DNA from: Ascochyta rabiei
Taxonomy: Eukaryota > Ascomycota > Dothideomycetes > Pleosporales > Didymellaceae
Length of the DNA: 64,000 bases
Reading direction: 5' to 3'
NCBI RefSeq assembly: GCF_004011695.2
Contig: NC_082410.1
Location: 558,001-622,000 of the forward strand
The translations under genes were made by a program, and so were the position numbers. The notes beneath the pieces are model-generated. The model saw nothing but the letters and a program-made list of their open reading frames with translations, was not told where the DNA came from and did no database searches. This document shows, in pieces, positions 7,287 through 20,358 of this stretch (within the stretch, counting starts at the first letter, position 1; each line of letters opens with the position of its first letter).

Positions 7287-7292
7287 AAAAAA
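7287..7292 (-). terminator. RNA polymerase III T-run terminator of tRNA-Val
   Basis: Six consecutive A on the plus strand give TTTTTT on the tRNA strand, 8 nt beyond the discriminator base. This is a normal pol III stop and supports an intact transcription unit. Confidence 0.7.
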
Positions 7293-7299
7293 TTGATGC

Positions 7300-7442
7300 T
7301 ACGAGCGGGGAGGATCGAACTCCCGACCTTCTGCGCTTCACATCTGACATGTAAAGCAGACATCATAACCACTGAAATCATTGTTAGATTGCTGCCGAGC
7401 CGCAAACTGGGTGATGTTTGTTCTTACCTAGACTACGCTCGC
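7300..7442 (-). tRNA. tRNA-Val(UAC): tRNA-Val (anticodon UAC) with two introns
   Basis: Reading the minus strand from 7442, the 5' acceptor strand (7442-7436, GCGAGCG) pairs fully with 7307-7301 (CGCTCGT, one G-U). TA follows, then the D arm begins GTCTAG and is broken by an insertion at 7427-7372. It resumes TGGTTATGATG to give a normal D loop TAGTGGTTAT. The anticodon stem TCTGC/GCAGA holds loop TTTACA-C, anticodon TAC, with a canonical 14-nt intron between positions 37 and 38 (7349-7336). The T arm GGGAG-TTCGATC-CTCCC is perfect, and the discriminator is A (7300). A T6 terminator follows. Read as contiguous DNA the 5' half looks degenerate, so a scanner allowing only the anticodon intron would probably call a pseudogene or miss it. 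Removing the D-arm insertion restores a complete cloverleaf. Whether the mature tRNA is made is unknown. Confidence 0.82.
7372..7427 (-). other. Spliceosomal-type intron inside the tRNA-Val D arm
   Basis: A 56-nt segment starts GTAAGA (7427-7422), contains a CTAAC branch-site match shortly before its end, and ends TTTCAG. These are the standard ascomycete spliceosomal signals and a typical ascomycete intron length. It lies in the D loop after tRNA base 15 and splits the internal A-box promoter. The intron bears no bulge-helix-bulge position expected for tRNA endonuclease. The boundaries could slide 2 nt because AG occurs at both edges. Confidence 0.75.
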
Positions 7443-8615: not shown

Positions 8616-8753
8616 GGTTGTATGGTGTAAGTTTCCACTGATCCGCTTCTTCATTAGCTTGCGCTAACTCCTTCACAGGTAGAGGTTATCACTTCAGATT
8701 TTGACTTGTCTTTAAAAATTCTGGAAACCCCGGTTCGAGTCCGGGTACGACCT
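8616..8753 (+). tRNA. tRNA-Gln(UUG): tRNA-Gln (anticodon UUG) with two introns
   Basis: The acceptor strands 8616-8622 (GGTTGTA) and 8746-8752 (TACGACC) pair over seven positions with one G-U. After TGGT the D arm is interrupted by 8627-8678 and resumes GTAGAGGTTATCAC. The spliced 5' half has the expected form of a eukaryotic tRNA-Gln with a GTG/CAC D stem. Anticodon stem TCAGA/TCTGG encloses anticodon TTG (8701-8703), and a 14-nt intron (8705-8718) sits at the canonical 37/38 site. The T arm CCCGG-TTCGAGT-CCGGG is perfect. A T6 run follows at 8757. As contiguous DNA the gene would look broken; removal of the D-arm segment restores every helix. Function would be to decode CAA if the RNA is processed, which the sequence cannot show. 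Confidence 0.88.
8627..8678 (+). other. Spliceosomal-type intron inside the tRNA-Gln D arm
   Basis: A 52-nt segment begins with the perfect donor GTAAGT, has a GCTAAC branch site at 8663-8668, and ends TTCACAG. It lies between tRNA positions 11 and 12, in the A box. The trinucleotide GTA occurs at both boundaries, so the exact edge can slide by 3 nt; it could equally be read as a 3-bp target duplication. Its sequence is unrelated to the insertion in tRNA-Val apart from the splice signals. Confidence 0.82.
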
Positions 8754-8756
8754 TCC

Positions 8757-8762
8757 TTTTTT
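8757..8762 (+). terminator. RNA polymerase III T-run terminator of tRNA-Gln
   Basis: Six consecutive T begin 4 nt after the acceptor stem/discriminator, a normal pol III termination signal. Confidence 0.75.
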
Positions 8763-18439: not shown

Positions 18440-20358
18440 CTATACACTTCCATTCGGCACCTGCACGGCGCCGGTTTCCTTGCCGCCCTGCAGCGGCTCG
18501 CCCCAGATCTGGATGACGAGTTGCTTCTTGTTGATTTTGCCCATTGCGTTCCTTGGGATGGTCTCTACGACCTTCATCTCCTGGGGTATTTTGTAGTTGG
18601 CGAGCATGTCCTTTAGTGCCCTCCTCATGTCCAGCGCTGACCATGCCTTGCCTCCTCTGCCCGCCGTCTTGCCCTGCTCAGATAGCACGACGACGGCGGC
18701 GACTTTCTGGCCCCATGCTTCGGATGGGAGGCCGACGACGGCAACCTCGGAGATGTAGGGCAGAGAGAGCATCTCGCGCTCGATTTCCAGCGCAGAGACC
18801 TTCTCGCCGCCAGTTTTGATAATGTCGGCCGATTTGCGGCCTTGGATGAAGTAGAGAGGTCCTTTGGCCCACTCTTGCTCGCTCTTGCCTGCGCCTTCTA
18901 CCGTCTTTCGGATGGCCACATCGCCGGTCTTGAACCACTTGCCCTGGCCGTCCGCGTCGTGTGTGAATTCTTTCGTCGTGGCTTCCGGGTTCTTCCAGTA
19001 TTCACGGAAGATGGTGGGGCCGCGAAGCTGGATCTCGCCGTGTCGCTCGCGGCCTGTGGCTGTGTCCATCTCCTCGCCTTCCCTGATGATCTCTCCTGTT
19101 TCCGTGTCGGCGAGACGCGCCTGGACCGAGGGCAGTGGCCAGCCTACGGACCCGTCCACTCGATCGGCAAAGTCGAGACCACAAGAAAGTGCCATTCCGA
19201 CCTCTGTCATGCCGTAGCGCTCGAGCAGGACGTTGCCTCCGCTCAGCTCTGACCAGGCGGACTTTACAGGGGTTGGGAGGGCAGCGGAGCCTGAGATGTT
19301 CAGCCGTAGGTTCGAGGGGTGTAGGGCGGTCTTGGTCGCAGCCTGGAGCTCTGGGGTCAAGCCGCAGTGTGAGGAGAGGAAGCGTGTGTAGATGGTGGGC
19401 ACGACTGTGAGCAAGGTAATGGGCTTCTTTGCGGGGTCTGGGTTGGGCAGGAAGGGCGCAGCGAGGCGTTCCCAGGCAGCTTGCGCGTTGAAGGGAAACT
19501 GGAACTCGATGACGCTACCGGCAAAGAGCGGGGTCAGCAGCGCGTTGACGGTGCCGTGGATGTGGTGCAGCGGAAGCACGTGCAGCAGCACATCGTTGGC
19601 CGTGTAGTTCCAGGCCTCCAGCAGCGACCTGGACTGGGCCGTCAGGACGTCTTGGGGCAGCAGGACACCTTTGGGGCGGCTTGTGGTGCCGGAGGTGTAG
19701 AGCATCATGCCGCCCTCTGTGCTCGTGGGCTCGTGGAGGGTGACGTAGTCGTCGGTCCGGCCCGTCATGATCTTCTCGCGCTTCCAGCTGATGGGGCTCG
19801 TGGCCATGTCCTGCTTCAGGATCTCGTCGGCCTTGTCCTGGAACTTGGCCGACGAGAGCAGCACGAGGGACTCGCTCTGGTCGACGATGTAGCGCAGCTC
19901 GTGGGCGGGGAACGTGGGCGACAGCGGCACGGCGATGGCGTGGGCAGCGAGGATGGACAGCAGCGTCACTGGGGAGCGGTCAGCGGCCGTGTCGAGGGCA
20001 GCACAGCACAGCGGGGGCCGGGGGGGGGGGGGTGCGCACCCACGTAGTCGTAGCCGTTCTCGACGAGGAACGAGATGCGCGCGCCCTCTGCGCTCTTGCC
20101 GCCCGTGTTGCGCTGCAGCTGGTCCTTGGCGGCGGCGACGTCGTTGAGCAGCTCGCGGTAGGTGAAGCGGCGGCCCGACAGCGAGTGGACGACGGCGGTG
20201 CTCTGGGCATCGTGCTGCTTGATGGCCTCGAACACGGGCAGGCGGGGGAGCGTCGACGCCATTCTGAGGGAGCGCGCGGAGGCACGCGGGCAGACGGGCG
20301 GCCCTCGAGGGGAGCGTGTCGAGCTGCGAGAGAGGAGATTGCGCGCCCACATGGCCAC
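18440..20358 (-). CDS. Mitochondrial malonyl-CoA synthetase-like acyl-CoA synthetase (ACSF3 type)
   Basis: Two exons (20040-20358 and 18440-19968) around a 71-nt intron give 615 residues. The first ~32 residues are Arg/Ser-rich and acid-free ('MAMWARNLLSRSSTRSPRG'), a mitochondrial presequence. The adenylate-forming core has 'YTSGTTSRPKGV' at 197-208, 'LPLHHIHG', 'ISGSAALP', 'ERYGMTEVGMA', 'KTGD' and 'IIKTGGEKVSALEIE'. The C-terminal 'NAMGKINKKQL' carries the catalytic Lys. The 'LPLHHIHGTVNALL' and 'YGMTEVGMALS' blocks fit the malonyl/methylmalonyl-CoA synthetase subgroup, which would supply mitochondrial fatty-acid synthesis. A general medium-chain ligase is the alternative. It is divergent from the BolA gene, with only 230 bp between starts. 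The intron contains a 13-base C tract right after its donor. Confidence 0.87.

Follow-up and report, generated by a model that had tools for sequence, protein, structure and literature searches.

Spliceosomal-type introns in nuclear tRNA genes of Ascochyta rabiei

Spliceosomal introns occur in ascomycete rDNA. For a short RNA gene transcribed by RNA polymerase III (Pol III), the text available from PMC10484740 describes an mRNA-type intron in the U6 snRNA gene of Schizosaccharomyces pombe, which is spliced during maturation and is thought to have arisen by reverse splicing near the catalytic nucleotides. Normal spliceosomal introns within a structured non-coding RNA are also found in fungal U3 snoRNA genes, of which intron-bearing and intron-lacking copies exist within one genome; these introns belong to one gene family, and the portion of PMC5832005 used here does not describe introns in tRNA genes. 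tRNA genes with several introns each and with interrupted D and T arms are known from cryptophyte nucleomorphs and Cyanidioschyzon, which a review (PMC4090602, available text) names as exceptions to the mostly pseudogenic D- and T-arm insertions of eukaryotes. According to the same text, the Guillardia introns measure 3-24 nt and are cut in an unknown way, and the C. merolae introns are ascribed to bulge-helix-bulge motifs and the splicing endonuclease; GT-AG or branch signals go unmentioned for either in that text, and the string 'spliceosom' is absent from the main text of the review.

The inserts described here, found in tRNA genes of Ascochyta rabiei, resemble the U6 intron in that they are of mRNA type and lie in short Pol III RNA genes. 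Unlike in U6, where a single snRNA gene is concerned, they occur in many tRNA genes, at several positions, and some genes contain two of them. They also differ from the canonical tRNA introns between nt 37 and 38 (37/38), which occupy another position, are mostly shorter and are cut by the tRNA endonuclease on the basis of structure and not of splice-site sequence.

The window, i.e. the whole stretch of DNA that was analyzed, comprises 64,000 nucleotides and harbors a tRNA-Gln(UUG) gene with the following parts:

8616-8752, plus strand: whole tRNA-Gln(UUG) gene, with T73 at 8753
8616..8626, plus strand: exon 1, nt 1-11 (acceptor 5' strand, nt 8-9 and start of the D arm), pairing with the acceptor 3' strand at 8746-8752
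8627..8678, plus strand: spliceosomal-type intron of 52 nt, GTAAGT...CACAG, the excision of which yields an ARAGORN call of tRNA-Gln(ttg)
8664..8668, plus strand: branch-site motif CTAAC (in GCTAAC) of this intron, 10 nt before exon 2
8679..8704, plus strand: exon 2, with the remaining D arm, the 5' side of the anticodon arm, anticodon TTG and A37
8705..8718, plus strand: canonical 14-nt intron at 37/38, of the tRNA endonuclease type
8719..8752, plus strand: exon 3, with the 3' side of the anticodon arm, the T arm and the acceptor 3' strand
8757..8762, plus strand: T6 run, Pol III terminator

This anatomy, comprising intact helices, a 14-nt intron at 37/38, a T6 run and a 52-nt GTAAGT/GCTAAC/CACAG insert after nt 11, had been proposed in an earlier sequence-only reading and was confirmed from the sequence. 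The acceptor stem reads GGTTGTA/TACGACC and the T arm CCCGG-TTCGAGT-CCGGG; sequence inspection further identified the B box of the internal promoter, GGTTCGAGTCC, and the T6 run, and 5 of 6 A-box letters are matched on the unspliced DNA. In its unspliced form, the gene is neither called by ARAGORN nor reported by Rfam in the window. When introns of up to 150 nt are allowed, ARAGORN places a spurious tRNA-Asp on the opposite strand, and the Rfam tRNA model, with weak matches admitted, reaches 16.9 bits over 8678-8745 (gathering score 29). Upon excision of the insert, ARAGORN reports tRNA-Gln(ttg) with a 14-nt intron, and the cloverleaf score of our own scorer is 38.2 as compared to 20.7 for the unspliced gene. 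The proposal that exact removal of the insert restores a tRNA-Gln D arm is thus borne out, and the same architecture recurs in 28 other tRNA genes. Furthermore, 22 places in the genome, counted by sequence irrespective of their gene content, match the composite pattern GTAAGT-N20..40-GCTAAC-N5..20-CACAG, versus none in the reversed control, which suggests that this motif is the genome's own intron signature.

A second intron-bearing tRNA gene of the window is found on the minus strand and is listed here together with an mRNA intron used for comparison:

7301-7442, minus strand: tRNA-Val(UAC) gene
7428..7442, minus strand: exon 1, nt 1-15
7372..7427, minus strand: spliceosomal-type intron of 56 nt, GTAAGA...TCTAAC...TTTCAG, after nt 15
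7350..7371, minus strand: exon 2, to nt 37, anticodon TAC by our own scorer
7336..7349, minus strand: canonical 14-nt intron
7301..7335, minus strand: exon 3, to acceptor nt 72, followed by A73 at 7300 and a T6 run at 7287-7292
19969..20039, minus strand: mRNA intron of 71 nt in an acyl-CoA synthetase-like gene, GTGCGC...GCTGAC...CCCCAG

The unspliced tRNA-Val gene is reported by neither ARAGORN nor Rfam; once spliced, it is read as Leu(taa) by ARAGORN and as TAC by our own scorer. The mRNA intron was placed where the homologues P0126 and P0125 break (P0121 overlaps differently), and its borders were read by eye. This single intron follows the same plan as the tRNA inserts, with CTGAC located 10 nt from the 3' end and a CAG end. 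As to the neighboring proteins, the acyl-CoA synthetase-like protein shows 93% and 95% identity to proteins of Ascochyta clinopodiicola and A. rabiei, respectively, and the SRS2-like helicase encoded next to the Gln gene 90% identity to an Ascochyta lentis protein, which assigns the fungus to the Didymellaceae.

The inventory of such genes covers the whole genome, a 40.9 Mb assembly of 23 contigs, with C23 taken as the mitochondrion. It is based on six T-arm patterns, each followed by a T run, which gave 106, 18, 34, 87, 60 and 7 rows versus 8, 8, 29, 20, 18 and 18 in the reversed control; a gene with a long T run is repeated among these rows, and the first pattern is represented by the best 100 of its 106 rows. 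Without the T run, the T-arm pattern had 124 matches versus 169 in the control and hence did not rise above it. In a profile search of the genome with RF00005, 63 of 1588 candidates were scored. The inventory is incomplete, as a gene split inside the T-arm motif would escape it and further Ile, Asn, Asp and Glu copies matched but were left unfetched. Scored as contiguous cloverleaves, 105 distinct tRNA-like loci fell into two groups, 77 with a score of at least 34 and 28 below. By reading the low-scoring loci and their paralogues, a choice that was not blind and in which GT..AG was taken among equivalent placements, we found 35 spliceosomal-type introns in at least 29 tRNA genes, which represent 13 isoacceptors and are distributed over 16 of the 22 contigs apart from C23:

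Gln-TTG: 1 interrupted gene
Gln-CTG: 4 interrupted genes
Val-TAC: 1 interrupted gene
Leu-CAG: 1 interrupted gene
Leu-TAG: 1 interrupted gene, with two inserts
Cys-GCA: 2 interrupted genes
Ala-CGC: 2 interrupted genes, one with two inserts
Pro-CGG: 2 interrupted genes, one with two inserts
His-GTG: 4 interrupted genes
Ser-GCT: 3 interrupted genes
Met-CAT: 1 interrupted gene
Pro-AGG: 4 interrupted genes, two with two inserts
Pro-TGG: 3 interrupted genes, one with two inserts

One of the 29 genes, L147, sits among the 77 high-scoring loci (contiguous reading 35.3) and was recognized via its paralogues L146 and L165; another, L163, lies outside the 105 scored loci. The low-scoring locus L141 (G000:C4, near 1318361) is a degraded tRNA-Asn-like locus and was excluded from the 29. 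L040, at G000:C5:855139, is a fragment of a tRNA-Lys in which the T arm is broken.

ARAGORN returned the expected anticodon and 5' end for 25 of the 29 genes after splicing, compared to none of the 29 before, and gave another anticodon for the remaining four (Val-UAC, both Cys genes and Met). In the two Cys-GCA genes, L046 (G000:C1, near 1060376) and L056 (G000:C2, near 874585), the anticodon stem contains, by our reading, an A28-C42 mismatch. In the Leu-UAG gene L057 (G000:C2, near 1963296, minus strand), one intron follows nt 10 and the other lies between the variable arm and the T stem, in addition to a canonical intron of 17 nt. By our own scorer, 57 of the 77 loci scored as contiguous contain a canonical 37/38 intron, and canonical introns also accompany many of the spliceosomal-type inserts. 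The T-arm patterns revealed no gene for tRNA-Phe, Leu-CAA or Arg-ACG, two weak candidates being not tRNA-like; these genes may be interrupted in the T arm. A scan of viral contigs gave no matches, and a scan of genome contigs gave two in bacterial records, which we take as chance.

The 35 introns share a common set of signals. Their length ranges from 48 to 68 nt with a median of 52 nt, and all start with GTNNG: GTAAGT in 19, GTACGT and GTAAGC in 4 each, GTAAGA, GTTAGT and GTAGGC in 2 each, and GTATGT and GTACGC in 1 each. GT..AG borders are found in 33 of 35, with 25 ending in CAG and 8 in TAG. In 34 of the 35, a YTRAY motif is located at a distance of 9-13 nt from the 3' end. CTAAY at a distance of 3-22 nt from this end is present in 30 of the 35, whereas 2000 rounds of shuffling of the interiors gave 3.24 on average and never more than 9. 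Neither the branch motif nor the 5' positions +3 to +6 played a part in placing the cuts. When paralogous introns were compared, identity amounted to 340 of 364 positions at the signals versus 635 of 873 in the interiors, a comparison that is biased toward the signals because the branch was aligned by its own motif. Counted from the tRNA 5' end, the introns are inserted after nt 10 (5 introns), 11 (14), 15 (5), 18-19 (2), 23 (2) and 25-26 (4), between nt 34 and 35 of the anticodon (2, Pro-CGG, as read) and in the variable arm (1, Leu-TAG). The introns that split the anticodon belong to L095 (G000:C5, near 644593) and L113 (G000:C12, near 316913), which after splicing are assigned canonical introns of 29 and 32 nt, respectively, by ARAGORN. 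The two introns without an AG end are inner introns of the Pro-UGG genes L157 (G000:C8, near 920907) and L159 (G000:C9, near 807119); they contain GTAAGT and GCTAAC, and the sole cut that restores the tRNA ends in CTG and CAT, respectively. They may represent non-AG splice sites or failing copies.

Restoration of the cloverleaf alone does not fix the intron borders. Of 174 displaced cuts, 44 still yield the right ARAGORN call, and in an unconstrained scan of dinucleotides GT..AG restores 12 of 28 loci as compared to 9 for the next pair, a lead that is only modest because the length of the D loop is free. Given this weak discrimination, we therefore rely on the branch motif and on empty sites in paralogues. 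The spliced Leu-CAG gene L039 (C12) is identical to the intronless L073 (C4) over 80 of 80 nt, with 21 and 20 positions identical in their 60-nt flanks, and the Met genes L143 and L084 differ by one base, which lies inside the 37/38 intron. Four Pro-AGG genes on four contigs have one and the same mature sequence; after nt 25, two of them contain a second intron, and the other two show the empty site; likewise, the D-loop intron of Ala-CGC is present in one of two copies. Each of five insertions defined by such paralogue sets has 1-4 equivalent placements, and all five admit GT..AG.

Altogether, the window Gln gene is very probably a working nuclear tRNA gene whose insert is an ordinary U2-type spliceosomal intron, and the genome comprises at least 29 genes of this kind. 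From the GT..AG ends, the spacing of the branch motif and the typical length we infer the major spliceosome, the known machine that matches these features. Group I and group II introns were set aside, as 48-68 nt is too short for either. The inserts might instead be ectopic tRNA introns that the tRNA splicing endonuclease cuts via bulge-helix-bulge motifs as in Cyanidioschyzon and Crenarchaeota, since D-arm and other non-canonical positions are known there and some nucleomorph tRNA genes contain three introns (PMC4090602, available text). The canonical intron that accompanies many inserts here would fit this picture, as would the looser 4-bp helices at 13 of 35 inserts, yet shuffling gives 12.85 of 35 and hence no enrichment. 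Strict geometries (A11 or B22) occur at none of the 35 inserts, with a shuffled mean of 1.73, whereas 15 of the 57 canonical introns of the same genome adopt the B22 geometry and 25 of the 57 form a helix at any offset, compared to 14.7 after shuffling. Moreover, GT..AG ends and a branch motif at a fixed spacing have no known reason in endonuclease introns, and we consider cleavage of the inserts by this enzyme very improbable. The introns could also be spliceosomal but be removed from a Pol II transcript that runs through the tRNA gene, with the tRNA cut out afterwards. As a rule, the spliceosome assembles in a manner coupled to Pol II, and a TATA-like box is present 32-66 nt upstream of 18 of the 29 interrupted genes, a count made for interrupted genes only. 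Against a Pol II precursor, the window Gln gene has a B box and a T6 run as in a Pol III gene, and the A-box letters are mostly retained on the DNA: in unspliced form, 22 of the 29 genes match the consensus TRGYNNANNNG at 5-6 of its 6 fixed positions and 7 genes at 3-4, all given as raw match counts. Where the intron follows nt 11, its own GTA replaces nt 12-14 of the A box. The B box and the T run belonged to the search patterns and therefore provide no independent evidence in genes found that way. With the mRNA-type intron of fission-yeast U6 there is also a precedent for such an intron in a Pol III gene (PMC10484740, available text), so that the Pol II route appears quite unlikely to us.

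It might further be argued that the interrupted genes are dead copies with insertions and that functional tRNAs come from intact paralogues. The cell needs tRNAs for Gln, His, Pro, Cys and others of these isoacceptors; therefore, the inserts must be removed unless uninterrupted copies have been missed. A genome-wide pattern for an uninterrupted Gln D arm matched nowhere exactly and at 8 places with two mismatches, versus 11 in the reversed control, and a DNA search of the genome with the Gln exons returned no locus beyond the window Gln gene. All five Gln genes found carry the intron, and both Gln isoacceptors share its site. Contiguous Pro/His-type D arms (ungapped, at most one mismatch) were found at 3 places, with none in the control, and these belong to the Pro genes L095 and L157, which are interrupted further on, and to the interrupted Ala gene L102; this search thus revealed no uninterrupted Pro or His gene. 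Likewise, the examined loci of our non-exhaustive inventory included no uninterrupted gene for Cys, Ser-GCT, Ala-CGC, Val-TAC or Leu-TAG. Dead copies would agree with the D- and T-arm insertions of other eukaryotes, which mostly affect one of many synonymous copies and are supposed pseudogenes (PMC4090602, available text), as well as with the degraded Asn-like locus L141 and with the incompleteness of the inventory. However, besides the missing intact genes, joining of the exons yields complete tRNAs, and one mature sequence is common to the four Pro-AGG genes across four contigs, which leaves the dead-copy reading barely credible. The sequence-only reading had itself named a restriction of the insertion to non-expressed pseudogene copies in relatives as speaking against its view; looked for within this genome, no such restriction was found. 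Its suggestion that the spliceosome may be needed to process a Pol III transcript gains support from the 29 genes, their splice signals and the failure to find an uninterrupted Gln gene. By comparison, the recent mobilization of an intron into one gene, which it had offered as the other option, fits poorly as a single event and was rejected, given 29 interrupted genes, sites shared by paralogues and by both Gln isoacceptors, and introns in five of five Gln genes.

With spliceosomal introns as the preferred reading, the following order of events can be envisaged for the window Gln gene. The interrupted gene would be transcribed by Pol III, as it retains an intact B box and terminator and finds most of its missing A-box letters in the 5' end of the intron. 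GTAAGT, GCTAAC and CAG in the pre-tRNA would then be recognized by the spliceosome, which would join nt 11 to nt 12. Since the tRNA endonuclease requires a folded tRNA body, the spliceosomal step is expected to precede canonical splicing; after the D arm and the tRNA fold have formed, the endonuclease and a ligase would remove the 14-nt intron at 37/38.

Among the matches listed in open-licence PubMed Central, we found no report of spliceosomal introns in tRNA genes, although one may exist in a subscription paper or preprint, and none is described in the available portions of PMC4494063, PMC9643772 and PMC11782384. The introns are hence of a known kind, and their host genes, their number and their apparent indispensability are new as far as searched.

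In summary, many tRNA genes of this genome are split, including every Gln, His, Cys and Pro gene found, so that protein synthesis probably depends on the messenger-splicing machine for its tRNAs. Judged from these gene structures, the spliceosome is likely an obligatory tRNA-maturation enzyme, on which all Gln, His, Cys and Pro decoding would depend, with an intron even within the anticodon of two Pro-CGG genes, and which would set the tRNA supply; tRNA genes would likewise be a live substrate for intron gain and loss. As ARAGORN was right on none of the unspliced genes, essential tRNA genes can evidently escape a standard tRNA finder. Filled and empty sites coexist in one genome and, in otherwise identical genes, provide a way to study intron gain. 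If our interpretation is true, whole amino-acid sets of tRNAs needing the spliceosome would tie translation to splicing, and the organism would offer a clean system for asking whether the spliceosome requires Pol II and how Pol III handles a split A box.
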